DNA of 43,694 nucleotides from Candidatus Choladousia intestinavium (GTDB lineage: Bacteria; Bacillota; Clostridia; Lachnospirales; Lachnospiraceae): the NCBI GenBank assembly GCA_018712785.1, contig DVGK01000054.1, positions 1 through 43,694 of the forward strand, given 5' to 3'. Positions within the stretch are counted from its first letter, which is position 1. Each line of letters opens with the position of its first letter. The position numbers were made by a program, and so were the translations under genes. Positions 21,620 to 39,550 of this stretch are shown piece after piece. Under the pieces are notes generated by a model. The model was given only the letters and a program-made list of their open reading frames with translations, searched no databases and was not told where the DNA came from.

Positions 21620-24217
21620 CTAAACCTCCTTTTGCTGATATTGAATCATTTCTTTATAGATTCTTTCGCAGTTTTTATGATCGGAGAAGGTGAAGAAATC
21701 ATCGGCCCGTCTTTTGTATTTTTCTCGCATCTGACAGTCTCTTTCCATATACTGGCAGAGTACCTGAACCAGTTCCTCGCTGGTATGGCAGATCTCTCCA
21801 AACCCCATGGTATCGTAGTAGAAGGTTCCTTCCTCGTAGTGCTGGGGAATATCCCGGTGGTGGAGATATACCACAGGCTTGCGCATGTAGGCGAAATCAA
21901 ACTGAACGCCGGAAAAATCCGTTACCATCAGGGCAGCTTCGCGGAAAATTTTTTCGTAGCTCATATCCCCTGTGGAGGGAATGATTTCCACGAATTCATT
22001 TTTCGTAAAATCCTCTGCCTGGGGGCTGATAATGGGATGCAGGACGTACTGAATCCGGTAGCCGTACTTTTTTGCCGCGTTTAAAAGAAGAGGATCATTG
22101 ATCAGCCCGTTATAGATCTTATAGTAATTGGTCTCCTTAAAATTCGGGTTATAATCCCGGGCTACCCCCTCGTTTTTCGTCACCGGGAGGACGGAGTTCA
22201 TCCGCCAGGTGGGAGAGAGAAGGAGGATTTTCTGAGCCTGGTTCTTAAGGCCGTCATACCGGGGGACGCCGGTAAGCTTCAGAGCGTTGTACCCTTCGTA
22301 ATCATACACAGGCTTGGAAAGGTTGGCGATCTCATACTTGGAAGCGCAGAAGTACAGCTTCGTGTTGTCACGGAGGCGGTTCTGAGCCACTGCGATCTTC
22401 TGAACGGACATGCCGTGCTGCACGCAGGACACCCCGAAGTGGACGTCGCCCCGGATCGGGAGAGAGCGCTGGAAGGTGTAGTCATTGAAGGCAAACACCG
22501 TGGAGTTGGAAGCAATCACCATATCCGCGTTTAAAAACAGAAGACGGTGCTTTAAGCTGCCGCGTCTTACGGGATGCAGCCCTTCCTTCTGAAGCCGGCT
22601 ATAGTCCGGGCAGGAGGGATCCAGAAGATAATATTTATGGATTCCGTCTCTGAACTGCCGGGAATACCGGTACAGATACTCCGAGGAATCTCCGCCTTTA
22701 TAGATCTTGTCAAAAAAGAACCAGATCTTTCTTCTGGAAAACCAGGGCCGCAGAAGGAAGTTCAGAACCTTCAGGGGGAGCTGGTCCCGGAACATTCCAT
22801 CCTTAAGCTGCCACATCTGCTTCCACAGGCGCAGCTCCTTGTACAGCACCATAAGCTTCCGGGATCTTTGGATGTGAATGCCGTCCTTCTTCCAGTAGGA
22901 CAGGTAGGGACCGAAGCGCCAGTAGGCGTAGGTGAGATCCTTGCAGAAGCGGCTGGTGTGGGAGGGAAAGGCAAAATCCATCAGATAAGTTTTCTCTCCG
23001 GTACAGAAGCAGAATCTGAGAATCCTCTCCCTGGAAGAATCCGGAACGGGAATGCTCATATGAAACGTCTTCAGGCGGTAAAAGGTCACGCCGAAGCATT
23101 TGGTCATGGAGTAACGCTGATTGTATACGGGCGCGTACGTTTTTCCGTCGAACTCGGCGTAAATCTCCGCCTCCCGGGAGGAAAAATAATCCTGGAAGCC
23201 GCCGTCGATTTCCAGACATCCCTTTCTGTAGTCAATGAGATTGATCCGGGCCTGAATGTTTTTCAGTGTTCCGAAGGGGACGCCGTCACAGGACAACTCA
23301 ATGGTATCTTCCTGGCAGGACAAGCTGGGATAGTAGGAGAAGTCCCGCTTTTTCAGCCTTACCTCCATAAGCTGGATCGGCAGATCCCAGGTAAGGGACT
23401 GACAGCTTCTGTCCAGAATCAGCCGCGTATCAATCCGCTCCAGCACATCGGAAAAAAGCTCGGCATAGCCTGCGGCTTCCCGGCGGGAAATCAGATTTTT
23501 ATTCCGGTTGTTCAGATTCGCCAGGATCCGCGTATTCAGCATGTATAAAGACAGACACTGGACATAGAGAGAAGGCTTTTGCTCTTTCAGAAGAGGCAGA
23601 AGGAATCCGGTCAGGGGAGTAAAATACCAGTCCCTGGACAGGCAGGACAGGCAGTATTCATAATCGTGTTCCCTGGGGAAAAAGTATTCAAAGTCCTGTG
23701 AGCCGAGATAGAAAAATTCCGGGCGGCTGTCCAAAAGAGAAACCAGAATCTGTTTTTCCGGCTCAGCTTCTTCCAGACAGTTTTCTGCGGCCTGCAGAAG
23801 AGAGGAGGTCTGAATCAGAAGACCGTTCAGACAGGTGGGAAAGACAGCGGGAATCTCAGTCAGAGAAACATGCAGCTCATCCTTTCCTTCCAGAGAAAAC
23901 TGCTCCCTGGGCCTTTTTACATGAATACAGGTCTGGGAAGGCATGACCATCACGGACTTTTCCTTTTGGGCTTCTGTGAAAAGCGCCTGGATAAAATCCC
24001 TGGAAAAAGAATCTCCCTGATCCAGAATCAGGGTGTACCTTCCACGGGCCTCCCCCAGTGCCAGAACCGTATTTTTCCTGGGATGAAGAGGGTCGTCCTC
24101 TTTCACAGGAAGAATCTGCATCCGGTCGGAGGGAAAGGTCTGGGTGGATAAGTCTGTTTTCCCGTCATGCTCCGGGCCGTGAGAGACCAGGAAGACAGTA
24201 ATATCATAAACGCTCAT
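21620..24217 (-). CDS. Large TagF-like CDP-glycerol glycerophosphotransferase (copy A)
   Basis: An 865-residue protein. The first about 130 residues resemble a degenerate GT-A glycosyltransferase start (YDITVFLVSHG, YTLILDQGDSFSRDF). The middle is a beta-rich region with no family I recognise. From about residue 500 to the end there is a CDP-glycerol:polyglycerophosphate transferase domain (TagF/TagB type): KIWFFFDKIYKGGDSSEYL, catalytic-type His601 in VQHGMSVQ, LHPIISP, and TDFSGVQFDFAYMRKPVVYL. It is a paralogue of the protein at 30027-32675 with the same architecture, but lies outside the main cluster on the other strand. An extended -10 promoter lies about 100 nt upstream, and the LUD gene is coupled downstream. 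Confidence 0.85.
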   Translation of the reverse strand: MSVYDITVFLVSHGPEHDGKTDLSTQTFPSDRMQILPVKEDDPLHPRKNTVLALGEARGRYTLILDQGDSFSRDFIQALFTEAQKEKSVMVMPSQTCIHVKRPREQFSLEGKDELHVSLTEIPAVFPTCLNGLLIQTSSLLQAAENCLEEAEPEKQILVSLLDSRPEFFYLGSQDFEYFFPREHDYEYCLSCLSRDWYFTPLTGFLLPLLKEQKPSLYVQCLSLYMLNTRILANLNNRNKNLISRREAAGYAELFSDVLERIDTRLILDRSCQSLTWDLPIQLMEVRLKKRDFSYYPSLSCQEDTIELSCDGVPFGTLKNIQARINLIDYRKGCLEIDGGFQDYFSSREAEIYAEFDGKTYAPVYNQRYSMTKCFGVTFYRLKTFHMSIPVPDSSRERILRFCFCTGEKTYLMDFAFPSHTSRFCKDLTYAYWRFGPYLSYWKKDGIHIQRSRKLMVLYKELRLWKQMWQLKDGMFRDQLPLKVLNFLLRPWFSRRKIWFFFDKIYKGGDSSEYLYRYSRQFRDGIHKYYLLDPSCPDYSRLQKEGLHPVRRGSLKHRLLFLNADMVIASNSTVFAFNDYTFQRSLPIRGDVHFGVSCVQHGMSVQKIAVAQNRLRDNTKLYFCASKYEIANLSKPVYDYEGYNALKLTGVPRYDGLKNQAQKILLLSPTWRMNSVLPVTKNEGVARDYNPNFKETNYYKIYNGLINDPLLLNAAKKYGYRIQYVLHPIISPQAEDFTKNEFVEIIPSTGDMSYEKIFREAALMVTDFSGVQFDFAYMRKPVVYLHHRDIPQHYEEGTFYYDTMGFGEICHTSEELVQVLCQYMERDCQMREKYKRRADDFFTFSDHKNCERIYKEMIQYQQKEV

Positions 24218-25856: not shown

Positions 25857-27077
25857 ATGAGAGCGTATGAAAGATTTTTAAGGTATGCGGCAGTTTACAC
25901 TGCCAGCGATGAGGAGAGCACAGCGGTTCCAACCACGGCAAGACAGTTCGATCTTGCCCGGATGCTGGTACAGGAGCTGCGGGAAATGGGAGTAAAGGAC
26001 GCCCGGGTAGATGACAAGTGCTATGTATATGGCAGTATTCCGGCCACACCCGGATATGAAGGATGCGTGAGTCTTGGCTTTATTGCCCATATGGATACCA
26101 CTCCGGATTTTAAAGGAGAGGGCGTGAAGCCCCAGGTGATCCCTGATTATGACGGAGAGGACGTGGCCTTAGGAGACAGCGGGCGGGTTCTGTCGGCGGA
26201 GCAGTTTCCCCACCTTCGCGGCCTGAAAGGGCGGACGCTGATTACCACGGACGGAACGACGCTGCTGGGGGCGGATGATAAAGCGGGAGTGGCGGAGATT
26301 ATGACTTTAGCGGAGCGGATTTTGAATGAGGAGATTCCCCACGGGAAAATCTGCATCGGGTTTACCCCGGATGAGGAAGTGGGAAGCGGAGCGGATTACT
26401 TTGATGTGGAGCATTTCGGAGCCCAATATGCGTACACTCTGGACGGCGGCGTGGAAGCTGAGGTTGTGTATGAGAATTTCAACGCATGCTCAGCCTCCTT
26501 TGAGGTTCACGGAGTCAATATTCATCCCGGCGACGCCAAGGATAAGATGGTAAACGCGTCTCTGGTAGCGATGGAGATCAACCAGATGCTTCCCTCCTGC
26601 GACACGCCGGCCCACACAGAAATGTATGAGGGATTTTTCCATCTTACCTCTATGGAGGGAAACGTGGAGAAGGCTAAGCTGCACTATATTGTCCGGGATC
26701 ACGACAGAGAGAGCTTTCAGGTGCGGAAAAAGCTTCTGAGATTCATTGAGAAAACCATAAATGAAAAGTACGGGAAGGGCACAGCGGTTCTTCAGATTCA
26801 GGATGAGTATGAAAACATGGAAGAGAAGATCAAGCCCTGCCTGCATCTGATCGACAATGCCAAGGACGCTATGCGGGAGCTGGGAATTGAGCCGGATGTG
26901 TCTCCGGTGCGGGGAGGAACGGACGGAGCAAGGCTGAGCTTCATGGGGCTGCCCTGTCCCAATCTGGGAACCGGCGGCTATGCCTTCCATGGCCCCTATG
27001 AGCATATTACGGCGGAAGGAATGGACACGGTGGTGGAGATCGTGCTGGGGATCATCCGCAGGTATGCCAAAGCCTGA
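25857..27077 (+). CDS. pepT: Peptidase T (tripeptide aminopeptidase)
   Basis: A 406-residue M20B metallopeptidase that removes the N-terminal residue from tripeptides. The two-zinc site is complete: HMDTTPD near residue 79, GADDKAG near 140, PDEEVGSG near 173, LDGG near 197, and GPYEH near 380. The dimerisation domain sits between them. AGGAGG precedes the ATG, and the gene begins 10 nt after tcdA. It ends 3 nt before a 97-bp inverted-repeat element that probably also terminates the transcript. Confidence 0.94.
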   Translation: MRAYERFLRYAAVYTASDEESTAVPTTARQFDLARMLVQELREMGVKDARVDDKCYVYGSIPATPGYEGCVSLGFIAHMDTTPDFKGEGVKPQVIPDYDGEDVALGDSGRVLSAEQFPHLRGLKGRTLITTDGTTLLGADDKAGVAEIMTLAERILNEEIPHGKICIGFTPDEEVGSGADYFDVEHFGAQYAYTLDGGVEAEVVYENFNACSASFEVHGVNIHPGDAKDKMVNASLVAMEINQMLPSCDTPAHTEMYEGFFHLTSMEGNVEKAKLHYIVRDHDRESFQVRKKLLRFIEKTINEKYGKGTAVLQIQDEYENMEEKIKPCLHLIDNAKDAMRELGIEPDVSPVRGGTDGARLSFMGLPCPNLGTGGYAFHGPYEHITAEGMDTVVEIVLGIIRRYAKA

Positions 27078-27080
27078 GTA

Positions 27081-27177
27081 GTTACTATTCACAGTCTGGT
27101 TTCAGAATTGACAGCAGATGCTTACGTGCAAGCACGATACGCCTGCTGTCAATTCTGAAACGGCTGTGAATAGTAAC
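27081..27177. repeat. 97-bp imperfect palindromic element
   Basis: The outer arms GTTACTATTCACAG (27081-27094) and CTGTGAATAGTAAC (27164-27177) are perfect complements. The second arms TTTCAGAATTGACAGCAG (27100-27117) and its complement (27143-27160) are also perfect. They are separated by a small internal mismatch, with a GTGC/GCAC tip at 27126-27135. The size, nested perfect arms and position right after a stop codon resemble dispersed intergenic hairpin repeats (MITE or REP-like) that double as terminators. Confidence 0.65.
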
Positions 27178-27216
27178 CCTGAGTACAGATAAGCTGAAAA
27201 TGAAAGCCGGAAATAA

Positions 27217-27311: not shown

Positions 27312-28100
27312 ATGAATCTTTTTAAATACCGAATCAAAACGCTGTTTAAGTACAAGGATCTGGTGAAAGAACTGGTGGGAAGGGATCTGAAGCTGAAATA
27401 CCGGCGCAGCTTTCTGGGCTATGTGTGGAGCGTGCTGAACCCTTTGCTGATCATGATCGTGCTGACCCTGGTATTTTCGCGGATATTCCAGCGGGACATT
27501 GAAAATTTCCCCGTCTATTATCTGACCGGGCGAACGATGTATGATTTTTTGAAGAGCAGTACCAACAGCGCCATGAAGTCTGTAACAGGAAACGCGGCTC
27601 TGCTGCGGAAGGTTTACGTGCCGAAATATATCTTTACTCTGGCAAAGGTCACAAGCGCCATGGTAGATATGGTGTTTTCCTTCGGCGCTATGGTGATTGT
27701 GATGATTGCCACAGGGGCGCCCTTTTACTGGACGGCGCTGCTGTTCCCCATTGTAGTGATTCAGATTTACATTTTCTGCTGCGGTCTGGGATTTTTCCTG
27801 GCTCAGCTTAATGTTTTTTTCCGGGATATCCAGCATATTTACTCAGCGGTGCTTACAGCCTGGCTGTATCTTACGCCCATTATGTATCCCATTGAGAGAC
27901 TGGGGGAGACGCTTACCTTTATCGTAAAAGCCTTTAATCCGTTGTATTATTATGTGGCGCAGTTCCGGGACCTGATCTACTACGGACAAATTCCGGGACC
28001 GAGAGTATTCTGGGGCGGCTGGCTTATTGCCTTTGTGATGCTGGCAATCGGCGTCTGGTCCTTCCAGCGGTCAAAGGATAAATTCATACTGTATATCTGA
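27312..28100 (+). CDS. ABC-2 type polysaccharide/teichoic acid export permease (TagG/Wzm-like)
   Basis: A 262-residue integral membrane protein with six predicted helices, of the ABC-2 polysaccharide exporter family. The N-terminal amphipathic start KDLVKELVGRDLKLKYRRSFLGYVWSV and LNPLLIMIVLTLVFS are hallmark sequences of TagG/Wzm/RfbA permeases. It would form the membrane channel for a lipid-linked polymer together with the next gene's ATPase domain. ATG 27312 follows AGGAGGAAGG; an upstream in-frame start at 27264 lacks a ribosome site and the family's start. The gap to the ATPase is 14 nt. Confidence 0.92.
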   Translation: MNLFKYRIKTLFKYKDLVKELVGRDLKLKYRRSFLGYVWSVLNPLLIMIVLTLVFSRIFQRDIENFPVYYLTGRTMYDFLKSSTNSAMKSVTGNAALLRKVYVPKYIFTLAKVTSAMVDMVFSFGAMVIVMIATGAPFYWTALLFPIVVIQIYIFCCGLGFFLAQLNVFFRDIQHIYSAVLTAWLYLTPIMYPIERLGETLTFIVKAFNPLYYYVAQFRDLIYYGQIPGPRVFWGGWLIAFVMLAIGVWSFQRSKDKFILYI

Positions 28101-28114
28101 CAGGGGAGGACAAG

Positions 28115-30025
28115 ATGGAGAATTACGTAGTTGACGTGAAGGATCTGACCATCCGGTTTAACCTTTCCAGTGAAAGGGTGGACAATCTTAAAGAATATGC
28201 CATTAAATTCGCGAAAAAAGAGCTTATGTTCCAGGAGTTTCTGGCTCTGAAGGGCGTGTCTCTTCAGGTGAAGAAGGGAGAAGCCTGGGGGCTGGTGGGT
28301 ACCAACGGTTCCGGAAAGTCCACTCTTTTAAAAACCATCAGCGGCATTCTGAAGCCTTATCAGGGGACTGTTAAGACAAAGGGGAAAATCGCTCCTCTGA
28401 TTGAGCTGGGGGCTGGATTTGACGGCAATCTCACAGCACGGGAAAATATTTTCCTTAACGGGATGGTGCTGGGACACTCCAGAAAATTTATGGAGGAGCA
28501 TTTTGACGAGATTGTGGAGTTCGCCAATCTGAAGCGTTTCCTGGACTCCCCTATCAAAAATTTCTCTTCCGGTATGAAAGCGCGGCTGGGATTTTCTGTG
28601 GCCACGATGGTGGATCCGGATATCCTGATTGTGGACGAGGTGCTGGAGGTAGGAGATTACCAGTTCCGTCGGAAGTGCAATGAGAGAATGCGCCAGATGC
28701 TTTCAGGGGGAACGACGCTTTTGTTTGTGTCCCATAATACAGAGACGGTGAAGCGGCTGTGCGATCATGCCCTCTGGCTGGACAACGGAGTCGTCCGGAT
28801 GGCAGGGGCGGCGGAAGAGGTCTGCGACGCCTACAAGGAGGAGCAGGAGGCCGCGATCCGTGAGAAAAAAGAAAGAAAGCGGGCCAAGCTGAGAGAAGAG
28901 GGGAAAAAATACGACTATCTGGTAGTGGGGGCAGGCCTCTACGGATCCGTATTTGCCAGAGAGCTTACCAGATCCGGAAAGCGCTGCCTTGTCATCGACA
29001 AGAGAGATCATATCGGAGGCAATATTTATACAGAGGATGTGGACGGGATCCAGGTTCACAAGTACGGGGCGCATATTTTCCATACCAGCAATCCTAAGAT
29101 ATGGAAGTATGTAAATAAGCTGACAGAGTTTAATAATTATATTAATTCTCCTGTGGCGGTTTATAAAGACGAGCTGTACAACCTTCCCTTTAATATGAAT
29201 ACCTTCTATAAAATGTGGGGACTGAAGAAACCCCAGGAGGTGAAGGATGAGATCGCCAGGCAGATCGGGGATCTGAATATCAGAGAACCCCGGAATTTGG
29301 AGGAACAGGCTCTATCCCTGGTGGGAAAGGATGTATACGAGAAGCTGGTGAAGGGCTACACGGAGAAACAGTGGGGAAGAGACTGCAGAGAGCTTCCCTC
29401 CTTTATCATCCGCCGGCTTCCCCTGCGGTTTACCTACGATAATAACTATTTTAACGACTTGTATCAGGGAATCCCTGTGGGTGGCTACACGAAGCTGGTC
29501 CAGAAACTTCTGGACAATGTGGATGTTATGACGGGGACGGATTTTTTTGAATACCGGAAAGAAAATTCCCACATGTATGACAGAGTGATCTACACAGGGA
29601 TGATTGACGAGTATTTTGATTACTGTCTGGGACATCTGGAGTACAGAACCCTTCGATTTGAGACGGAGCGGCTGGAGGAAGAAAATTATCAGGGAAACGC
29701 TGTCATGAATTATACGGAGAGGGAGATTCCCTACACCAGGATTATTGAGCACAAGCATTTCGCGCCGGAGGAGGAGAGGGAGAATCCCAAACCCTACACC
29801 GTGATTTCCAGAGAGTACCCGCAGGAGTGGAGGCCCGGAATGGAGCCCTACTACCCTGTGAATGATGAAAAAAACAGCCGGCTCTATGAACAGTACCTGG
29901 AGCTGACAAAGAAAGAAAAGAAGGTCCGCTTCGGCGGAAGGCTTGGCTCCTACCGGTATTATGATATGGATAAGGTGATTGAAGCAGCGCTGGAGGATGC
30001 GGAAGAAGAGCTGGGGAGACGCTGA
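28115..30025 (+). CDS. ABC exporter ATPase fused to UDP-galactopyranose mutase
   Basis: A single 636-residue reading frame holding two complete enzymes. Residues 1-240 are a TagH/Wzt-type ATPase: Walker A GTNGSGKST at 62-70, signature SSGMK at 151, Walker B ending in DE at 174-175, and SHN switch at 206. Residues about 241-265 are a charged Lys/Glu linker. Residues 266-636 are a full UDP-galactopyranose mutase (Glf), starting KYDYLVVGAGLYGSVFAREL (FAD loop). It keeps HKYGAHIFHT, YNLPFNMNTF, GYTEKQWGR, YQGIPVGGYT and RIIEHKHF. Glf makes UDP-galactofuranose in the cytoplasm. The fusion ties precursor supply to the export ATPase of the permease encoded just upstream. No frameshift or internal start is evident at the junction. 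Confidence 0.9.
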   Translation: MENYVVDVKDLTIRFNLSSERVDNLKEYAIKFAKKELMFQEFLALKGVSLQVKKGEAWGLVGTNGSGKSTLLKTISGILKPYQGTVKTKGKIAPLIELGAGFDGNLTARENIFLNGMVLGHSRKFMEEHFDEIVEFANLKRFLDSPIKNFSSGMKARLGFSVATMVDPDILIVDEVLEVGDYQFRRKCNERMRQMLSGGTTLLFVSHNTETVKRLCDHALWLDNGVVRMAGAAEEVCDAYKEEQEAAIREKKERKRAKLREEGKKYDYLVVGAGLYGSVFARELTRSGKRCLVIDKRDHIGGNIYTEDVDGIQVHKYGAHIFHTSNPKIWKYVNKLTEFNNYINSPVAVYKDELYNLPFNMNTFYKMWGLKKPQEVKDEIARQIGDLNIREPRNLEEQALSLVGKDVYEKLVKGYTEKQWGRDCRELPSFIIRRLPLRFTYDNNYFNDLYQGIPVGGYTKLVQKLLDNVDVMTGTDFFEYRKENSHMYDRVIYTGMIDEYFDYCLGHLEYRTLRFETERLEEENYQGNAVMNYTEREIPYTRIIEHKHFAPEEERENPKPYTVISREYPQEWRPGMEPYYPVNDEKNSRLYEQYLELTKKEKKVRFGGRLGSYRYYDMDKVIEAALEDAEEELGRR

Positions 30026-30026
30026 G

Positions 30027-32675
30027 ATGATAACAGTCTGCGTGATATGGGACGGAGAACAGGAAAAACTGAATAAAACGCTGAACAGCTTGGAAAAACA
30101 GGGGCCGGATTTTCAAAAGGAGATCCGGCTTAAAATCCTGTGCGGGAAAAGTGAGGACGAGGTGGAAAGCTCTCTTTCCGGACAGGCGGAATACTTTTTC
30201 GGACAGGATCAAAGAGAGCTTCTGGCGGCCCTGGAAGGGGTCCTCTATGGTCTTGAGACTGAGCTTGTGACTGCCGTGGAGGCTGGGGAGACCTGGCAGG
30301 GTCAGTCTCTGGCTATGGGAAGCCGGATGCTTATGGAGACAGACGGGGCGGACGGACTCCTTCTGCAGCATTTCGGCGGACGGAAAACTGCCGGACGGGT
30401 GAAGAAAAAGGCAGGCAGAGACGGAGTGTCCCAGGGAAAGCTGTATTCCCTGGAACGGGCGGAGGATATTCTTAAGCTTCCCGCCTGCCTTCACGGAGCT
30501 GTGCTCCGTTCCCAGGCTGTCCGGGGAGAAGCCTACGAGGAATCCTACGGCCCCGGCATGGAAGAGGCTTTTCTGTTTAAGATTCTCATGAAGAAGGGGA
30601 AGGTTCTTTTTTCCAGGGAGCTGGGCTTTTTGGGAAGTTCGCCGATGTATGACGACCGGGTTTTAAAGCCTCAGTGGGAGGACCCGTCCTGGTATCTGGC
30701 TGTGGCGCGGGATTACTGTTTAGGGCTTCTTGAGGAAGAAAAAAGGAAGTACGGGGCACCCCGTCTTTTCGCCCAGGCTCAGGCAGCCTATGCCGTCCGC
30801 CATATGTTTGACATTAATACAGACAACCGGGATCGGCAGGTTCTGAAGGGGAAGGACTGGGCACAGTTCCTGAAGAGCTGCCGGGCCTGTATGGAGATGG
30901 TGAATAAGAGTCTGCTGCGCCCGGAGGAAAGTCTCCATGTGGAGAGACGGATGCAGTATTCCGTGTGGCCGCTTATGATGAAGCTTGCCTGCAGGGAGCG
31001 GGAGAAAAAAGAAGTCCTCCCTATGGCTTTCATAGATCTGACGGAGGAGGAGAATGGATGTATCCGTCTGGAAGGCTCCTTCGATCAGATCGGAGCCGGG
31101 GAGAAAGGGAGCTTTTTTGTAAAATACAGGGGAAACAGGATTCCCCACGCCAGAAGCCCCAGGTACGCGAAGCTTTGTTTTTTCGGAAAGCCCCTGGTGA
31201 AGAAATACGCTTTTTCCGTTACTCTTTCAGCCGGGATGCTGAAGGAGGGCGGAGAGCTGAGCTTCTGGATTACGGATGGGAAAAGAGAGCAGAGGATGCC
31301 TGCGGGAGCCCTCCGGTATACGGCCGGGTTCACCCATCTTCTGAGGCGCTCCTACCGGTGTTATGGAAGGTATCTCCTTTCTTTCAAGGAAAAAGACGGA
31401 GTCCCTGAGGCTGTGTCCATAAGAAAAACGGGAAAAGCAGGACATTTTCTCCGGGAAATAAAATTCTTAAAGGAAATTCTCACTTCCGCCTACGGCTCCA
31501 GAAAGCTTTTCCTGGTTCGGCTTTTGTACTGGCTTACAAGGCCCATGTATAAGAGACGCCATATCTGGCTGACCTTTGATAAGCTGTACAAAGGAGGAGA
31601 CTGCGGGGAATATTTTTATAAATACATGGAAAAAGAAAAGAAGCAGGGAGTGACTCCCGTTTATATTATAAGGGAGAACGCGCCGGACCGGAAGCGGCTG
31701 GAGGGGGAAGGATACCGCCCGCTGATTCACCGGAGCTTAAAGCAGAGGCTGGCCTACCTGAACGCGGAGATGGTTTTTGCCACCCACAGCGCGGTGCCCT
31801 CTTTCTGCGGCTTTGACAAATGGGAGGTACGGTTTGTCCAGGATCTGCTGCGGGGAACGAATACCTGCATTCAGCACGGGCTTTCCGTTCAGGATCTCAC
31901 CTTTGACTCCAACCGGGTTGTGAATAATAATAAGCGTTACTACTGCGCGTCCCCCAGTGAAATTGAAAATCTCTCAAAGCCGGAGTATGATTATCCGCTC
32001 CAGACCCTAAGGCTTACCGGAATTCCCCGGTACGACGGACTTGTAAACCGGGATCAGAAGCAGATTCTCATCACTCCTACCTGGAGAGCCTATATCGCCA
32101 TGCCGGCAGTGATGGGAAACGCCAGGCCCTACAGTCCTGAATTTAAACACACGGATTATTTTAAACTGTATAATCGGCTGATTACGGATGAGAAGCTGGC
32201 GCGTACGGCCAGGGAGCATGGGTACAGAATCGTATTCCTTCTCCATCCCGTCACCAGCTCTCAGAGAAGGGATTATCCGGAGGATACCGAGACGGTGAAG
32301 ATTGTCACGGCCCTGGAGACCAGCTATGAGAAGATTCTCACAGAGTCCAGCCTGATGGTAACGGACTATTCCGGGGTTCAGTTCGATTTTGCCTATATGA
32401 GAAAGCCGGTGGTTTATTTCCATTCGCCCAAGCTTCCTCCACACTATCAGGAAGGCGGCTTCTCCTACGAGACCCAGGGCTTTGGGGAGATCTGCCGGGA
32501 TCCGGAGGAGACGGCAGATCTTCTGTGTACCTATATGGAGCAGGGCTGCGCTCTGAAGCCGGAGTATAAAGAGAGACAGGATGCCTTCTTTGCCTTTGAC
32601 GATCATGAGAACTGTAAACGAATTTTCCAGGATGCCATGGAGTACAGGAAATGTTTGCGATCAAACAGTATTTAA
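30027..32675 (+). CDS. Large TagF-like CDP-glycerol glycerophosphotransferase (copy B)
   Basis: An 882-residue protein, starting ATG one nucleotide after the fusion gene's stop. The N-terminal region (about 1-450) is weakly GT-A-like and beta-rich without a clear family. The C-terminal about 370 residues form a TagF/TagB-type alditol-phosphate transferase domain: RRHIWLTFDKLYKGGDCGEY, His617 in IQHGLSVQ, LLHPVTSS, and TDYSGVQFDFAYMRKPVVYF. It would add glycerol- or ribitol-phosphate units from a CDP-activated donor at the inner membrane face. It is a paralogue of 21620-24217 with the same domain plan. Its 3' end overlaps the TagB-like gene by 25 nt. Confidence 0.87.
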   Translation: MITVCVIWDGEQEKLNKTLNSLEKQGPDFQKEIRLKILCGKSEDEVESSLSGQAEYFFGQDQRELLAALEGVLYGLETELVTAVEAGETWQGQSLAMGSRMLMETDGADGLLLQHFGGRKTAGRVKKKAGRDGVSQGKLYSLERAEDILKLPACLHGAVLRSQAVRGEAYEESYGPGMEEAFLFKILMKKGKVLFSRELGFLGSSPMYDDRVLKPQWEDPSWYLAVARDYCLGLLEEEKRKYGAPRLFAQAQAAYAVRHMFDINTDNRDRQVLKGKDWAQFLKSCRACMEMVNKSLLRPEESLHVERRMQYSVWPLMMKLACREREKKEVLPMAFIDLTEEENGCIRLEGSFDQIGAGEKGSFFVKYRGNRIPHARSPRYAKLCFFGKPLVKKYAFSVTLSAGMLKEGGELSFWITDGKREQRMPAGALRYTAGFTHLLRRSYRCYGRYLLSFKEKDGVPEAVSIRKTGKAGHFLREIKFLKEILTSAYGSRKLFLVRLLYWLTRPMYKRRHIWLTFDKLYKGGDCGEYFYKYMEKEKKQGVTPVYIIRENAPDRKRLEGEGYRPLIHRSLKQRLAYLNAEMVFATHSAVPSFCGFDKWEVRFVQDLLRGTNTCIQHGLSVQDLTFDSNRVVNNNKRYYCASPSEIENLSKPEYDYPLQTLRLTGIPRYDGLVNRDQKQILITPTWRAYIAMPAVMGNARPYSPEFKHTDYFKLYNRLITDEKLARTAREHGYRIVFLLHPVTSSQRRDYPEDTETVKIVTALETSYEKILTESSLMVTDYSGVQFDFAYMRKPVVYFHSPKLPPHYQEGGFSYETQGFGEICRDPEETADLLCTYMEQGCALKPEYKERQDAFFAFDDHENCKRIFQDAMEYRKCLRSNSI

Positions 32676-33766
32676 AAATGCTTCTGCAGAATGTGCTGCT
32701 GCCGGCTGTCTATTTCTGCTTCCGCCGAGGGCCCCTGCGGAAGGGTACGGTGCTCTTCGCGGACGGCCATCACACGGAAATGCCTTTTTCCATGAGGCGG
32801 ATGTATGAGGCCGTGGAGACGGAAAAGGACCGATATCATACGGAGCTTTTTATAGAGGATTTCAACCAGATGTCTTTTTTACAAACGGCAGTTTTTCTTC
32901 TGCGGTTTATGCGCAGCTACGCCACGGCAGAGTACGTCTTTATCTGCGATTATTTTTTGCCGGCGGCCGCCTGCCGGAAGCGCAGGGAGACTACCCTGGT
33001 GCAGCTGTGGCACTCCTGCGGCCTGATGAAAAAGATTGCCTTTGACGCGGGGCAGGATATCCCCAAAAACTACCGGGGCAATATGTTTGGAAATTATACG
33101 TGGCTGACCATGAGCGCGCCGGTGTGCGTTCCGGTTCACGCCAAGGCCCTGCGCATGGAGCCGGAGAGAATCCGGGCCACCGGAATCTGCAGAACGGATT
33201 ATTATTTTGATCCCCAGTGGAACCGGCAGTGCCGGGAGCGGTTCTTTCAGGAGCATCCGGAGGCCAGGGGTAAGAAGATCGTCCTCTGGGCGCCTACCTT
33301 CCGGGGAAATGCCGCCATGCCAAGACTGGAAGGGCTTTCCGGAATCCGCCGGGCGGCCGGGGAGCTTGGAGACGACTGGTATTTTATCCTGAAGGCCCAC
33401 CCTCACATAGACGGGCGGGAGCAGGTGTCAAATACCCGGATTCCCACGGAGGAGCTTTTGTGTGTGGCAGATCTTCTGATTACAGATTATTCCTCCGTGC
33501 TGTTTGATTATGTGATTTATGAAAAGCCGGTGCTGCTCTTTGCGCCGGATCTGAGAGAATATGAGAAGGAGCGGGGATTCTACATTGATTACCGCTCTAT
33601 GCCCTTTCCAGTGGTGGAAAAGGAGGAGAAGCTGGCAGAGGAAATTCCACGGAGTCTGGAGAGCGCCAGAAAGCGCCGGAAAGAGATCCATGAATTCCGG
33701 ATGAAATATACAGGAGCCTGCGATGGAAGGTCTACAGAACGGATTATGAAGCTGGCGGGCATGTAA
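32651..33766 (+). CDS. TagB-like CDP-glycerol glycerophosphotransferase
   Basis: A 371-residue single-domain alditol-phosphate transferase. Motifs include QLWHSCGLMKK with His121, VLWAPTFRG, ILKAHPH near 248, and TDYSSVLFDYVIYEKPVLLF near 280. An N-terminal amphipathic or hydrophobic helix (MLLQNVLLPAVYFCF) is typical of membrane-associated TagB. It probably adds the first alditol phosphate to the lipid-linked primer, with the larger TagF-like protein extending it (inference from family roles). AGGAA precedes the ATG, inside the 25-nt overlap with the upstream gene. Confidence 0.9.
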   Translation: MFAIKQYLKMLLQNVLLPAVYFCFRRGPLRKGTVLFADGHHTEMPFSMRRMYEAVETEKDRYHTELFIEDFNQMSFLQTAVFLLRFMRSYATAEYVFICDYFLPAAACRKRRETTLVQLWHSCGLMKKIAFDAGQDIPKNYRGNMFGNYTWLTMSAPVCVPVHAKALRMEPERIRATGICRTDYYFDPQWNRQCRERFFQEHPEARGKKIVLWAPTFRGNAAMPRLEGLSGIRRAAGELGDDWYFILKAHPHIDGREQVSNTRIPTEELLCVADLLITDYSSVLFDYVIYEKPVLLFAPDLREYEKERGFYIDYRSMPFPVVEKEEKLAEEIPRSLESARKRRKEIHEFRMKYTGACDGRSTERIMKLAGM

Positions 33767-33906: not shown

Positions 33907-34689
33907 ATGAATATAGCTATTATTTTTGCGGGAGGCAGCGGAGTGCGGATGGGGGCCGGAGTTCCCAAGCAGTTTCTGGAGATAAACGGAAAGCCCATCC
34001 TGATCCATACGCTTCTTCTGTTTCAGGAGCATGAAGAAATTGATAAAATCTATCTGGCAGTGGGAGAGGAATACATCCCCTATGCCTGGCATCTGGCGGA
34101 GGAGTTCCGGATTGACAAACTTCAGGAGGTGGTGGCCGGAGGCGAGACAGCCCAGGATTCCATTTACAACGCCTTGAAGAAGGCATCTCAGGAGAATCCG
34201 GAGGACTCCATTGTGCTGATCCACGACGGGGTGAGGCCCATGGTGGACTACACAGTGATCAGTGACAATATCTCCAGCGTACAGGAATATGGAAGCGCCA
34301 TCACCTCCACGCTCTGCTATGAGACGATTCTTCTCAGCAAGGACGGGGAAACTGTGGACAGCCTTCCCCTGCGGAAAGAAAGCTATGCGGCCCAGGCGCC
34401 TCAGAGCTTTTATCTGAAGGATATCCTGGAGGCCCATGAGGCTATCCGGACAAGGGAGAGCCGGTATGAGAATATGGTGGACGCCTGCACCATCTACAGG
34501 GCTTTGGGAAAACAGCCTCATATTGTCCAGGGAAACAGAGGGAATATTAAGGTAACCACACCGGAGGATGTGTATATGCTTCGGGCGTTGATTCAGTATA
34601 AAGAAAATGAACAGGCCTTCGGACTGGGATCCGCGGACCGGCTTGCCAGGAAGATGAACCGGTACCGGAAGAAAATGGAAAAGAAATAA
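33907..34689 (+). CDS. IspD/TarI-type cytidylyltransferase
   Basis: A 260-residue nucleotidyltransferase that activates an alditol phosphate with CTP. Signatures are the N-terminal loop IIFAGGSGVRMGAGVPKQFL (residues about 5-24), HDGVRPMVD near 106, and the QAPQSF and TTPEDVYM segments. IspD (methylerythritol) and TarI (ribitol-5-phosphate) share this fold. The polymer operon, the adjacent reductase-type gene and the downstream LicD favour CDP-ribitol or another CDP-alditol. AAAGGAGG precedes the ATG. Confidence 0.85.
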   Translation: MNIAIIFAGGSGVRMGAGVPKQFLEINGKPILIHTLLLFQEHEEIDKIYLAVGEEYIPYAWHLAEEFRIDKLQEVVAGGETAQDSIYNALKKASQENPEDSIVLIHDGVRPMVDYTVISDNISSVQEYGSAITSTLCYETILLSKDGETVDSLPLRKESYAAQAPQSFYLKDILEAHEAIRTRESRYENMVDACTIYRALGKQPHIVQGNRGNIKVTTPEDVYMLRALIQYKENEQAFGLGSADRLARKMNRYRKKMEKK

Positions 34690-34721: not shown

Positions 34722-35819
34722 ATGGAAAAGCTTCAGCTGACAAGGGATCCGATCCTGCAGCAGGATCTGGAGGAAATCGCGGGCTCGGACATGATAGAGT
34801 GGGAGCGCTTTCGCGGGAAGACGATTCTGATTACAGGAGCTACCGGCCTGATCGGGAGCCAGGCAGCTATGGCTCTGACTCTGGCCGGAAAGCTGCGGGA
34901 CCTGAATCTTAAGGTTCTGGCATTGGTAAGAAACCGGGAAAAGGCGGAAAAGATGCTGGGAAGCTGTCTGGAACAGGGACTGGAGCTTCTCATAGGAGAT
35001 GTGACAGCGTTTCCGGGGACCGAGGAAAAGATTGATTTTGTCCTTCACGGCGCGGGAGTGACTGCCTCGAAGCAGTTTGTGGAGAAGCCGGTGGAAACGA
35101 TCCTTACCACTCTGAAAGGGACGGAAGCCATGCTTGAACTGGCCAGAAGCCATAGGGCCGAGGGAATGGTTTATCTCTCCTCCATGGAAGCCTATGGGGT
35201 GGTGGACCCGGAGCATTATATTGTCAGAGAAAAGGATTACGGCTATATTGATCCTCTGGAGGCGCGCAGCAGCTATTCAGAGAGCAAGCGGATGGCAGAG
35301 GGACTCTGCGCGGCTTACGCCCATGAGTACGGCCTTCCGGTAAAAAACGCCAGGCTGGCTCAGACCTTTGGGGCAGGAATTCCCGAGAGCGAAAACCGGG
35401 TATTCGCCCAGTTTGCCAGAAGCATTCTGAAAGGGGAGGATCTGGTGCTTCACACGGACGGAAGCAAGGCACACTGCTACTGCTATACTTCCGACGCGGT
35501 TCTGGGACTTCTGAAGATTCTCCTTGAAGGAGAACCAGGGCAGGCGTATAATGTCTCCAACGAAGACACCTTTTCTACCATCCGCGAGATGGCTCAGATG
35601 CTGGTGGAGGAATACCCGGAATCCGGTTCCAGACTGGTATTCGATATCCCAAAGGATGCCAGCCTCTACGGATATGCCCCGTCTTCCAGGATGCTGGTGA
35701 ATTCCGGAAAGCTCCAGTCTCTGGGCTGGAAGCCCCAGGTAAACCTGTCTGGAATGTACCGGCGGCTGATGGGGAGCATGAAGGGCTGGAAAGAGTTCCA
35801 GGGAGAGCCGCGGCCGTGA
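34722..35819 (+). CDS. NAD-dependent epimerase/reductase (intact extended SDR)
   Basis: A 365-residue extended SDR with an about 30-residue N-terminal extension. The coenzyme loop GATGLIG is at 39-45, and the catalytic pair is Tyr185 and Lys189 (YSESK), with SSMEAYG supplying the serine. It lies 32 nt after the cytidylyltransferase. In TarIJ and Bcs1-type systems a reductase makes ribitol-5-phosphate beside the IspD-like enzyme. TarJ is a medium-chain enzyme, whereas Bcs1 carries an SDR, so this protein could fill that role or modify a nucleotide sugar. It is the only one of three consecutive SDR-like proteins that keeps the active site. Its stop overlaps a possible GTG start of the next gene. 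Confidence 0.87.
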   Translation: MEKLQLTRDPILQQDLEEIAGSDMIEWERFRGKTILITGATGLIGSQAAMALTLAGKLRDLNLKVLALVRNREKAEKMLGSCLEQGLELLIGDVTAFPGTEEKIDFVLHGAGVTASKQFVEKPVETILTTLKGTEAMLELARSHRAEGMVYLSSMEAYGVVDPEHYIVREKDYGYIDPLEARSSYSESKRMAEGLCAAYAHEYGLPVKNARLAQTFGAGIPESENRVFAQFARSILKGEDLVLHTDGSKAHCYCYTSDAVLGLLKILLEGEPGQAYNVSNEDTFSTIREMAQMLVEEYPESGSRLVFDIPKDASLYGYAPSSRMLVNSGKLQSLGWKPQVNLSGMYRRLMGSMKGWKEFQGEPRP

Positions 35820-35878
35820 CTGTATCTGAGAAGTCAGGGGGCGGAGAGCAGCCGGAAAAGGAAAGGAGACGACAGCAA

Positions 35879-36625
35879 ATGGAAGCAGGAAAAAAATATG
35901 CCGATTCTCCTGTGTGGGAGCAGCTTTCGGGCAGGCGGATCCTTCTGATGGGAGTGAAATCGCCGCTGAAGCAGAGCTTTCTTCAGAATCTGTCCCACAT
36001 GGGAACCCAGATGGGAGGAGAGTTCCAGGTGGTGGAGGATCCTGCGGAGATCCGGGAAGGCGATCTCATTTTTCTGTTCGGTCTGACCAGAGAGAGCGGA
36101 TTTGAGGCCTGGAAGGAGATACAGAGCCTCTGGCAGGTCTTCCGGTTTCTGGAAGGAAAAGAATTTGAAGCCGCGGCTCTGGTGACAGGAACGGAGGTTT
36201 ACGGAAAGCTTTACGGGAAAGAGAGAGCCATACGGGAAGAGGAGATGGGGTATGTAAGCCATCTGCTGAAGGAGGACACAGCCCCCTTCTGTATGCGCAC
36301 CGCGGAAAATCTGGCGGGGAGGCTTGCCAGGGAAAAGGGACTTCCCATAAAGATCCTGCGGACAGTAAGAAACTGGGAGGACACGGTTTCTGATACAGTG
36401 GTGGCAGAAGGCGTCGCCGGGGCCTTTGGAAGTCCCATTCAGCGGCTGATTCAGGGAGCGGTAACGGCGCTGTTTTTGGGAAAAGCCGGGGAGGCGTATA
36501 ATCTGCCTTGGGAGGAATCTTCCTTTGAGGAGGAGCCGGAGAGCAGAAGTCCTCTTTCTCCGGTGATTGTGAAGCCGGATACGCAGAAACTGGAGCGGCT
36601 CGGCAAAGACGCGGCGGCAGGATGA
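35879..36625 (+). CDS. Degenerate SDR-like protein without catalytic residues
   Basis: A 248-residue protein that aligns by eye with the SDR upstream but has lost its active site. The Gly-rich loop is replaced (LLMGVKSPLKQ for LITGATGLIGS). The YSESK motif becomes FCMRT, so both Tyr and Lys are gone, yet flanking blocks persist (TGTEVYG, REKGLPIKILRT). It may be a structural partner of the intact SDR. ATG 35879 follows AAAGGAGA; a GTG at 35816, overlapping the previous stop, would add 21 charged residues and is the alternative. The following 121-bp gap holds a hairpin. Confidence 0.65.
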   Translation: MEAGKKYADSPVWEQLSGRRILLMGVKSPLKQSFLQNLSHMGTQMGGEFQVVEDPAEIREGDLIFLFGLTRESGFEAWKEIQSLWQVFRFLEGKEFEAAALVTGTEVYGKLYGKERAIREEEMGYVSHLLKEDTAPFCMRTAENLAGRLAREKGLPIKILRTVRNWEDTVSDTVVAEGVAGAFGSPIQRLIQGAVTALFLGKAGEAYNLPWEESSFEEEPESRSPLSPVIVKPDTQKLERLGKDAAAG

Positions 36626-36746: not shown

Positions 36747-38639
36747 ATGCTTCGGGATTTTTTAAATGAATTTCAGCTGGACTGGGCTATGGCCCCTGTT
36801 CGTTCCGGCATGATTCCCAGAGAAAAAATCAATAAAAAGAGAGTTCTGCTGGCAGGAGGAGAGGATTCCCTGCGTCAGGCTCTGGCCTGGTCTTTCCTTG
36901 CCTGGAATGAGAAGGAGGGGGTTTCCGTAAAGGCAGAGCAGTACGGAGAAGGCGAAGAGATACCGGAGGAGAGCTTCCGGGAAGCGGATTATATTGTGTT
37001 TCCAGGGTTATGCTCCGCAGCGCTGCCTCAGGATCCGTATCAGTGTATGGCCTGGCTGGACGACTGGTTCCGTCTGCTTAAGAGAACGGCGGATCTCTCA
37101 GCAAAGGCCCGGCTGATTCTTTTGTCGGACGGCCGTTCCTTCGGAAAGCTGAAGCGGGGATTCGCTGCTTCCGAATACGAGGAGGGGAAGACGGACCCTT
37201 TGGAAGAGGATTTTTCCGCCCAGTATATCATGCAGGCGGCGGAGGGGATTTTCATCTCCTGGGCAAAAGAGAATCGAAGGGAGTTTAACATTCTGCGGAC
37301 CGGTTGGGTGTACGGGCCGGGGATTTTTATGCTGGATCACCCGCTGGGCCGGCTGGCCCGCCTTACAGCGGCAGGGGAAGAGAGAGAAATCCCCATTCTG
37401 CCGGATCAGGACTCCTATACCTGCATCCACGATCTTCTGACGGCTCTTCAGTTTGTGCTGACCCGGTGCCCGGCAGGAAAGGTATTTCACGTGACGGGAC
37501 TTGATTCGGACGCCACTGCCGGGGAGATGGCGCTGATTCTCCACCGGAATTTTCCGGAGCTGTGCCGCCTGAACCTGGTATGCCGGGAAGCGGGGGAGAA
37601 CAAGGGGATTCTGCTGAACACCCAGCTTCTTCGCCATTACGGCTTTGAACCCAGGGTGAGTCTGGAGGACGGTCTGATTATCCTTGTAAAAAGCCTGCAG
37701 AATACCGGGGAGGTATTTATTTTTGACAATACCTACCTGGGCAAGCTTGAGAAGGTACACGAAATCCTCCTTGCCTATCTTCTGGAAATAGACCGGATCT
37801 GCAGGAAACATAACATCAAATATTTTCTGGCAGGAGGAACCCTCCTGGGAGCTATCCGCCATAAGGGCTTCATCCCATGGGATGACGACGCCGACGTGAT
37901 GATGCTGAGAGAGGATTACGACCGCTTTCTGGAGGTGGTTCGGGATGAGCTGCCGGAGAACATTTTTCTGCAGCTTCCCTGGACGGAAAAGGGAAATCAC
38001 AATCCCTTTACCAAGCTGCGGATTGACAATACTCTTTTCGCCACAGAATTCACAGGACATTTTATGGACATGCACAACGGAATTTTCTTCGATGTGCTGT
38101 CCCATGATAAGACCGGGAACCATTCCTGGTCCCAGAAGCTCCACCTGATGATCACCATGCTTACCCGCTCCATTGTATTCAATAAATGGGGGAATACAGA
38201 TATAAAAGGGGGAGGGGCTCACCCTCTGATCTGCAAATTTGTGGACAAGGCCAAGTATCTGATCCCCATGCGGTTCGCGGAGTGGGCACAGAATAAAGCC
38301 CTTACCTTTTTTAAAAACCGGGACAGCGATTATCTCTATGACGGCATGGGGAGAAATCTGAAACGGGGGGCTTTTCCGAAAAAATGGCTGGATGAGGCTG
38401 TGTATGTGGAATTTGAAGGATATCAGTTTCCGGTGCCCCGGGATTACGACCAGTACTTGGCTTATCTTTATGGAGATTATATGCAGATGATACCGGTAAG
38501 TCAGAGAAGAACCAGTCACAGCATTGTGGTCATGGATCTGGGGGCATATTCGGATTTTAGCATAAAAGACAGCGGGAAGGAAGAAACAGCAGATTCCCGC
38601 CGGACAGAAAGGAAGGAAGGTGGCAGATGCTTTCGGTGA
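36747..38639 (+). CDS. Degenerate SDR domain fused to LicD transferase
   Basis: A 630-residue two-domain protein. Residues about 30-315 are a second decayed SDR: LLAGGEDSLRQA in place of the Gly-rich loop and YIMQA in place of YxxxK (lysine lost), but with the late motif ILRTGWVYGPG kept. Residues about 330-600 are a LicD domain with AGGTLLGAIRHKGFIPWDDD and the metal-binding cluster D379-D380-D381-A-D383. LicD proteins transfer phosphocholine, and the related fukutin and FKRP transfer ribitol phosphate from CDP donors. With a CDP-alditol synthase two genes upstream, decoration of the polymer with an alditol phosphate or choline is likely (inference). GGAGG lies 12 nt upstream. The end overlaps the next gene by 13 nt. 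Confidence 0.85.
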   Translation: MLRDFLNEFQLDWAMAPVRSGMIPREKINKKRVLLAGGEDSLRQALAWSFLAWNEKEGVSVKAEQYGEGEEIPEESFREADYIVFPGLCSAALPQDPYQCMAWLDDWFRLLKRTADLSAKARLILLSDGRSFGKLKRGFAASEYEEGKTDPLEEDFSAQYIMQAAEGIFISWAKENRREFNILRTGWVYGPGIFMLDHPLGRLARLTAAGEEREIPILPDQDSYTCIHDLLTALQFVLTRCPAGKVFHVTGLDSDATAGEMALILHRNFPELCRLNLVCREAGENKGILLNTQLLRHYGFEPRVSLEDGLIILVKSLQNTGEVFIFDNTYLGKLEKVHEILLAYLLEIDRICRKHNIKYFLAGGTLLGAIRHKGFIPWDDDADVMMLREDYDRFLEVVRDELPENIFLQLPWTEKGNHNPFTKLRIDNTLFATEFTGHFMDMHNGIFFDVLSHDKTGNHSWSQKLHLMITMLTRSIVFNKWGNTDIKGGGAHPLICKFVDKAKYLIPMRFAEWAQNKALTFFKNRDSDYLYDGMGRNLKRGAFPKKWLDEAVYVEFEGYQFPVPRDYDQYLAYLYGDYMQMIPVSQRRTSHSIVVMDLGAYSDFSIKDSGKEETADSRRTERKEGGRCFR

Positions 38640-39550
38640 TACTTCCGGCGTACAATGAAGAAAAAATGATCGGCAAAGCAGCCGGCACCATTGGGGAAAT
38701 CCTCGCCAAAGCGGGCATACCTTATGAAATTATTTTTGTAAATGACGGATCCCGGGATCATACCTGGGAGGAAATTCAGAAAACAGCCGGAGAAAAGGCC
38801 GAGGTGCTGGGAATCCGATTTTCCAGGAATTTCGGGAAGGAGGCCGCTATGATGGCCGGCCTGGCCGCGGCTTCCGGAGACTGCTGCGCTGTCATGGACT
38901 GCGATCTGCAGCACCCGCCCCAGACGCTGGTGGAAATGTACCGGCTGTGGGAGCAGGGGTATGAAGTGGTGGAGGGAGTCAAAAGAAGCCGCGGGAAGGA
39001 GAGCGCGGCCCACCGCATGAGCGCCGGGCTTTTCTATAAGATCATTTCCCGGGCAGTGAAGATTGACATGTCCAGGGCCTCTGACTTTAAGCTTCTGGAC
39101 CGGAAGGCCGTGGACGCGATTCTGTCTCTGCCGGAGCGGAATCTTTTCTTCCGGGCTCTGTCCTCCTGGGTGGGCTTTAAGACGGCTTCTGTGGAATTCG
39201 ATGTACAGGAACGTACGGAGGGTGAATCCAAGTGGTCCACCTGGTCCCTGATTCAGTACGCGGTGAAGAATATTGTGGCTTTTTCCACAGTACCTATGCA
39301 GTGCGTAACGGTGGCCGGCGTTGTGGTCTTTGTGATGGCGGTGATTCTGGGGATCCAGTCTCTGATCAAGTATTTTTCCGGCCATGCGGTAGAAGGCTTT
39401 ACCACGGTGATTCTGCTGATTCTGATTATCGGCAGCATTATTATGATCAGTCTGGGAATTATCGGATATTACATTGCCAAAATCTACGAGGAAGTGAAAG
39501 GCAGACCCCGGTATATCATTGCCGAGAAGACGAAAAAGAAGGAAGCTTAA
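38627..39550 (+). CDS. DPM/GtrB-type membrane glycosyltransferase (GT2)
   Basis: A 307-residue GT2 enzyme with the motif VNDGSRDHT near 38-46, Asp91 and Asp93 in the DCDLQHPP metal site, and two C-terminal transmembrane helices (about 226-250 and 258-285). This is the layout of dolichyl/undecaprenyl-phosphate sugar synthases (DPM1, GtrB, ArnC). It would load a sugar onto undecaprenyl phosphate for transfer to the polymer outside the cell. AGGAAGGAAGG precedes the ATG inside the overlap with the LicD fusion. No partner flippase or outer-face transferase is visible in the window. Confidence 0.88.
   Translation: MLSVILPAYNEEKMIGKAAGTIGEILAKAGIPYEIIFVNDGSRDHTWEEIQKTAGEKAEVLGIRFSRNFGKEAAMMAGLAAASGDCCAVMDCDLQHPPQTLVEMYRLWEQGYEVVEGVKRSRGKESAAHRMSAGLFYKIISRAVKIDMSRASDFKLLDRKAVDAILSLPERNLFFRALSSWVGFKTASVEFDVQERTEGESKWSTWSLIQYAVKNIVAFSTVPMQCVTVAGVVVFVMAVILGIQSLIKYFSGHAVEGFTTVILLILIIGSIIMISLGIIGYYIAKIYEEVKGRPRYIIAEKTKKKEA

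Follow-up and report, generated by a model that had tools for sequence, protein, structure and literature searches.

The stretch of DNA from Candidatus Choladousia intestinavium analysed here (43,694 nucleotides in total, referred to as the window) contains a gene in which an ABC ATPase of the TagH/Wzt type is joined in frame to a UDP-galactopyranose mutase (Glf). This fusion is real and inherited. Judged from the aligned relatives, the fused Glf lost catalytic residues in three lineages while the domain and the ATPase motifs were kept, and a further role of the mutase half at the exporter, in structure or in recognition, is probable. The gene and its parts, with the evidence for each, are as follows.

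28115..30025, + strand: fused gene, TagH/Wzt-type ABC ATPase plus UDP-galactopyranose mutase, 636 aa (Pfam, NCBIfam, in-frame relatives)
28115..28843, + strand: ATPase half, residues 1-243 (Pfam, NCBIfam, nearest solved chains, Foldseek)
28811..28897, + strand: linker, residues 233-261 (one continuous predicted helix in the AlphaFold model)
28907..30013, + strand: mutase half (Glf), residues 265-633 (TIGR00031; 1i8t, 4mo2; 12/12 tested active-site residues)

The gene is a single frame of 636 codons which starts with ATG and has no internal stops. Pfam matched ABC_tran at residues 45-176 (83 bits, cut-off 25), NAD_binding_8 at 270-336 and GLF at 410-615 (281 bits, cut-off 26.3), and the NCBIfam model UDP-GALP_mutase (TIGR00031) matched residues 265-633 with 437 bits (cut-off 304), covering positions 1-377 of the 378 in the profile. 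The ATPase half has Lys68, Ser152-Gly153, Asp174, Glu175 and His207, which are the Walker A lysine, the signature, the two Walker B residues and the H-loop, respectively. The solved chains nearest in sequence are TarH (6jbh), Wzt (6amx and 8dku) and TagH for the ATPase half, and the E. coli and C. jejuni mutases (1i8t and 4mo2) for the mutase half. These results, together with the recurrence in the genus described below, bear out the initial annotation, which had read a complete TagH/Wzt-type ATPase and a complete Glf in one uninterrupted frame. The ATPase stays below the cut-offs of the TagH equivalog NF010066 (186 bits against 320) and the galactan-ATPase equivalog NF050108 (207 bits against 400). 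A Wzt-type C-terminal beta-sandwich sugar-binding domain was not found by Pfam or Foldseek; the C-terminal half has the UGM fold, and it is the sole PF03275 match in its own genome (90% complete).

A search for the two-domain architecture in Lachnospiraceae, where the initial annotation had expected it to be sought, revealed it as a lineage trait of some members, occurring in the genus of the window and in other genera. An uninterrupted frame over the junction is present in 42 of the 47 genus genomes; 41 of these are full length, and in G363 the fusion is cut by a contig end within the mutase half. Three genus genomes (G004, G024 and G030) gave no match to the fusion. G026 has a TAG stop codon in the linker (L125, near 10679), and in G362 the halves are in different frames near the linker (L156, 3609-5734). 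Either interruption could be due to faulty assembly or reflect a true separation of the halves, which would imply a weaker need for the physical link. G362 belongs to the clade with lost catalytic residues described below, and G026 to the genomes with an intact Glf. A sequencing or assembly error at the junction of the window gene is unlikely, because in-frame fusions recur across the genus at 67-94% identity.

Outside the genus, among the matches listed for the 297 other-genus genomes of the family sample (E <= 1e-60, four candidates scored per genome), only G201, G128 and G284, the last at a contig edge, have the fusion. No further fusion was seen among the matches listed for 390 additional genomes sampled across the class, at settings (E <= 1e-120, three candidates scored per genome) by which weaker cases could be missed. 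A locus search gave at least eight fused loci (L040-L047) among the 80 listed; L041, L042 and L044 appear to repeat genus genomes already counted, and L046, from Porcincola intestinalis, is near-identical to G128. In a plasmid search, each of the eight listed records aligned with the Glf half alone; 56 records covering at least 80% of the query were counted, so plasmid-borne fusions may exist. Other Glf fusions were considered for seven loci (L187-L193) in which a long open frame had been indicated next to a Glf match. Six of the seven have an ordinary Glf frame of 368-383 residues from stop to stop, the corresponding frame of L193 is 509 residues long, and none was taken as a fusion. A description of an ATPase-Glf fusion was not found among the papers listed for a limited body of literature.

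The linker was found to be charged, as had been claimed, and is conserved in length but variable in sequence. Among the 47 fused genes scored (46 by pattern and L007 by eye, with L131 left out), the linker is 25 residues long in 36, 26 in seven, 27 in three and 29 in one. In the AlphaFold model of the fusion (single chain, 51 sequences, pLDDT 85.3, pTM 0.72), the predicted helix 233-261 runs from the ATPase towards the mutase, and the mean pLDDT is 94, 86 and 88 for three blocks spanning residues 231-260. Near the linker, the window gene has a single in-frame start-like codon, GTG271, located within the first mutase strand. An internal start scan of 38 fused genes found no position common to all and no start whatever in four of them. 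With GTG271 as the sole candidate and no shared internal start, separate initiation of the window mutase half is unsupported. In some relatives separate translation could occur, because there is an ATG in their linker (L023 at 247 is one of several examples).

Conservation of the active site was scored at Kp N84, Y155, W160, R174, Y185, N270, R280, Y314 and Y349, at H56 (E. coli) and R343, and, in addition, at D351. The residues were mapped by hand via the E. coli alignment. For the active-site list apart from D351, including the FAD contacts H56 (E. coli) and R343, we used Table 3 of PMC3624792. All 12 tested residues are present in the window Glf. The active site is kept in the window genome and 37 others of the 43 genus genomes scored, with D351N in G012, and residues are likewise kept in six fused relatives from other genera, with D351N in L032, L033, L043, L045 and L046 and no change in L034. 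The Arg found in the GAHIFRT motif of the C. jejuni UDP-GalNAc mutase corresponds to His in the window protein and in the E. coli enzyme, a residue associated with preference for UDP-Gal.

Five genus genomes (G010, G035, G015, G361 and G362) have each lost five catalytic residues. R174 is replaced by E, E, E, G and K, respectively, and Y314, Y349, N84 and either Y185 or N270 are lost as well. Outside these five, L047 (RUG409) lost six residues (N84, R174, N270, Y314, Y349 and D351), and the Glf of L131 lacks some 100 residues, to which Y155, W160, R174 and Y185 belong, and shows three other changes besides. Since the five species form one clade in the Glf tree, these cases with L047 and L131 would amount to three loss events. 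The six tested ATPase residues are intact in 48 fused genes (the window included), in the G362 piece and in four more; L034 misses one of them at a contig end, and for the G026 piece the check was limited to the motifs. In the mutase halves of L139, L141 and L142, copies which have lost catalytic residues, insertions precede the Tyr314 region, and those of L139 and L141 contain repeated peptide motifs.

The Glf of the five-species clade is under purifying selection, looser than that of intact copies. Seven of the ten possible pairs gave dN/dS values (Nei-Gojobori, 500 codon bootstraps) of 0.137, 0.085, 0.128, 0.091, 0.134, 0.114 and 0.144, with an upper 95% bound of 0.274 for the closest pair and at most 0.202 for the others; with insert columns included, the range is 0.092-0.166 (eight pairs). 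For comparison, dN/dS was 0.012-0.093 for Glf in intact fused pairs (16 pairs with a value; 0.016-0.069 in five pairs by the count matching the clade values of 0.085-0.144), 0.021-0.054 for the standalone replacement Glf (five pairs) and 0.038-0.049 for the ATPase half of the same five-species clade (five pairs). Selection was tested in this one of the three lost-catalysis lineages. Because the domain stays constrained after the loss of catalytic residues, the mutase half would probably have a role other than catalysis. The clade Glf also changes faster relative to dS than Glf in intact pairs, and slow decay is thus possible.

The main competing explanation is that the fusion serves catalysis only, channelling UDP-galactofuranose to the exporter or co-expressing its synthesis with it, and that the copies with lost residues are leftovers decaying after a standalone Glf had arrived. 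The active site kept in 38 of the 43 genus genomes fits this explanation, as do the faster change and occasional insertions of the lost-catalysis copies. So does the distribution of other Glf genes: each genome of the five-species clade has a standalone Glf with 12/12 residues (L165, L183, L166, L157 and L159), and another Glf is present in 13 of the 38 genomes in which the fused Glf kept its active site (Fisher p 0.009, kinship ignored). Decay, however, predicts dN/dS moving towards 1, far from the 0.085-0.144 observed, and the Glf frame is open in all five clade members, at silent divergences of up to 1.2. The separate fusion L131 retains its Glf, too, even without some 100 residues. We consider an explanation by catalysis only to be unlikely.

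Several features of the other Glf copies were noted in passing. The neighbours of four standalone genes (L165, L166, L157 and L159, the four fetched) seem by eye unrelated to polymer synthesis. About 1.2 kb downstream of the L047 fusion another Glf begins, which is truncated by the end of the contig. G016 combines an intact fusion with four standalone Glf: one of these has 12/12 residues, and N84 is changed in the other three. In several genus genomes, the sugar contact Asn84 is Leu in the standalone copies L170, L171, L172, L175 and L179, Cys in L176 and Tyr in L167, L177 and L178; judging by this residue, such copies perhaps use another substrate.

Foldseek matches of the model placed UGM first and Wzt and TagH next, those of the ATPase half including 8dku and 7k2t. 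The hinge helix of A. aeolicus Wzt leads into a dimeric carbohydrate-binding domain, which contacts it (PMC9445017), and in capped O-antigen systems such a module binds the terminal epitope and licenses export (PMC11231755). Bacterial UGMs tend to be dimers (PMC3624792), and dimers of this family occur in E. coli, Klebsiella and Mycobacterium. By analogy, the mutase half on its hinge helix likely occupies the place of the dimeric carbohydrate-binding domain of Wzt, the analogy being one of position and symmetry drawn from a single-chain model. Wzt proteins with such a domain (A. aeolicus, E. coli O8/O9a) thus have in common with the fusion the ATPase fold and a helix-borne, dimer-forming C-terminal module; their module, however, is a beta-sandwich sugar binder, and that of the window gene is an FAD-enzyme fold of about 369 residues.

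This resemblance leads to another explanation, in which the mutase fold has taken over from the Wzt carbohydrate-binding domain and binds chain ends that contain galactofuranose; a replacement of that domain had been the second idea of the initial annotation. The shared position after the ATPase hinge helix and the tendency of both families to form dimers speak for such a role in cargo recognition, and so does the retention of the domain without its catalytic residues. Yet the sugar-nucleotide contacts Asn84, Arg174, Tyr314 and Tyr349 are among the residues lost, and binding would thus require a newly formed site; we hold this explanation to be quite unlikely. Finally, it is very improbable that the fusion merely reflects faulty assembly or annotation, or that its halves are made as separate proteins: the stop in G026, the frame change in G362 and the linker ATG of some relatives would fit this, but the frame runs through in 42 of the 47 genus genomes, the linker is nearly constant in length, and the start scan gave no shared internal start, with four of 38 genes having none.

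To trace the origin of the fusion, trees of both halves were examined. A tree of 106 ATPase domains groups 46 of them, from genes that are or once were fused and including the window gene, in one clade (SH-aLRT 96), which was also recovered in a tree without the window row; the 47th fused ATPase, that of L131, branches apart. The fused label needs two changes on the ATPase tree with L131 and one without it. On the Glf tree (86 rows) it needs two, with the rooting uncertain due to long rows. L131 (G016:C108, 4413-6008, - strand) is an ATPase-Glf fusion of 532 aa on a single 7 kb metagenome contig, and its ATPase is 83% identical to the unfused L090 ATPase of another lineage; by these comparisons, L131 is a second, independent fusion.

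Among unfused kin, TagG, TagH and glf lie in a row in L039/L140 (G308) and in L050 (a Ruminiclostridium MAG), with ATPase and Glf 64-68% and 63-71% identical to those of the window, respectively. In L051 and L144 one gene intervenes between TagH and glf, and in G016:C20 (L130) TagH adjoins glf unfused. The gene 3' of glf in L140 has a GlfT2 N-terminal domain (PF17994, E 1e-8), and G016:C20 has two PF17994 matches. The close unfused kin L049, L052 and L053 have no Glf within the stretch fetched. Given the unfused TagH and glf neighbours, some with a GlfT2-like gene, the fusion likely arose from neighbouring genes in a galactofuranose-polymer operon. Features of three ATPase relatives were noted as well. 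L088 (64-2490) has a related ATPase in an 809-residue frame, the long hydrophobic C-terminal part of which resembles a membrane acyltransferase by eye. L053 (10001-10729) is a close relative (60%) in a Spirochaetaceae MAG, and L097 (10101-10580) is 66% identical over about 160 aa in a Pasteurellaceae record; both were perhaps transferred.

In the genus, the fused gene sits within a teichoic-acid-like operon. The genes around it in the window are as follows.

21620..24217, - strand: relative of the enzyme at 30027-32675 (PF04464; same cluster; 31% identical)
27312..28100, + strand: TagG/Wzm-like permease, likely partner of the ATPase (PF01061)
30027..32675, + strand: two-part teichoic-acid-type enzyme, N-terminal GT-A fold plus C-terminal TagF/TarL-like part (predicted model)
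32651..33766, + strand: TagF/TarL-like polyol-phosphate transferase (PF04464, 190 bits)
33907..34689, + strand: TarI/IspD-like cytidylyltransferase (PF01128; NF001183, 186 bits, cut-off 166)
34722..35819, + strand: NAD-dependent epimerase/dehydratase-family protein (PF01370)
35816..36625, + strand: conserved neighbour with no Pfam match (cluster 12, 9 members)
36747..38639, + strand: LicD-family protein with a weak epimerase-like N-terminal part (PF04991 at 352-576; PF01370 E 0.1)
38627..39550, + strand: GT2 glycosyltransferase, PgfS-like (PF00535; NF047588, 278 bits, below the cut-off of 500)

In 46 of 47 loci rows (two rows being one G001 locus), the fusion is preceded by a TagG-like permease, an order for which the initial annotation had proposed a test; the exception has just 194 bases upstream. 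The cut-off exceeded by the product of 33907..34689 is that of the D-ribitol-5-phosphate cytidylyltransferase subfamily model. The N-terminal part of the 30027-32675 product models like the GT-A fold of TarP, TarS and RmlT and is a candidate user of galactofuranose, but Pfam found no match in the first 391 residues of the product, and the DXD motif looks degraded by eye. None of the genes in the window operon was identified as a galactofuranosyltransferase. A GlfT2-like polymerase was considered as the user and rejected, as PF17994 has 0 matches in the window's own genome (90% complete); GlfT2-type genes occur in one of the 47 genus genomes.

Some further observations were made in this region. 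Two related enzymes with a TagF-like part, 21620-24217 (-) and 30027-32675 (+), lie near each other on opposite strands. Between the upstream gene and the permease is an inverted repeat of about 100 bases (27077-27180), with four further matches of 76-86% in its own genome; it is perhaps a small repeat element.

The explanation we somewhat favour is an exporter ATPase carrying a Glf module which would supply UDP-galactofuranose at the exporter and do a non-catalytic job besides. Together, the ATPase and the TagG-like permease would make up a 2+2 transporter, and its cargo would be a lipid-linked surface polymer with polyol phosphate, as suggested by the TagF/TarL-like, TarI-like and LicD genes of the operon. 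The window mutase half, a complete enzyme and the sole Glf found, would supply UDP-galactofuranose at this exporter. As its second job, the mutase dimer may stabilise the ATPase pair, dock synthesis enzymes or touch the cargo. Dimer geometry, transport, polymer identity and the exact second job are points which we infer. Several observations weigh against this explanation: the losses amount to three events, one of them with a selection test; the Glf of that clade changes faster; two interruptions fall at or near the linker; three genus genomes lack the fusion; the operon has no identified galactofuranosyltransferase, and GlfT2-type genes are rare in the genus; and the 13 genomes with both an intact fusion and another Glf show that a second copy does not always bring loss. 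The initial annotation had placed UDP-galactofuranose synthesis at the membrane export gate; the 12/12 residues and the sole PF03275 match support this for the window copy, but synthesis would not be the whole reason for keeping the domain, as it stays in three lineages in which catalytic residues were lost. This leaves room for a stand-in for the Wzt carbohydrate-binding domain or for a scaffold.

Known systems share parts of this arrangement. TagH/TarH (6jbh, 7dd0, 9cfl) has in common with the fusion the ATPase sequence, a TagG-like partner and a teichoic-acid-type operon; TagH/TarH is not known to have a Glf domain. The standalone UGMs (E. coli 1i8t and the C. jejuni UDP-GalNAc mutase 4mo2) are 58-59% identical to the mutase half but are free enzymes, whereas the window mutase is fused to a transporter ATPase. 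The unfused TagG-TagH-glf triplets (L039/L140, L050) share the gene order but keep TagH and glf separate. The mycobacterial Wzm-Wzt galactan exporter, with separate Glf and GlfT1/GlfT2, combines ABC export with the supply of galactofuranose in a single pathway, as proposed here; Glf, however, is a protein of its own in mycobacteria and primarily cytosolic by fractionation (PMC10951656). This fits the earlier statement that the two proteins have no physical link in known systems, which was probed in a limited body of literature.

A bolder form of the favoured explanation, which we put forward tentatively, is that the enzyme became a structural, export-licensing part: synthesis would have come first, and the mutase dimer would then have become needed for the shape of the exporter, so that in three lineages the domain stayed although its chemistry was lost. 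If this is true, the lost-catalysis copies would be natural separation-of-function variants and the mutase half a new kind of Wzt C-terminal module. For ABC polymer exporters without a carbohydrate-binding domain, the questions are how cargo is recognised and how export is coupled to synthesis, and natural relatives that have lost catalytic residues but kept the enzyme half allow direct probing of the role of this extra half in export. Galactofuranose is absent from mammals, and the fusion suggests that it may be present on the surface of some gut Lachnospiraceae.
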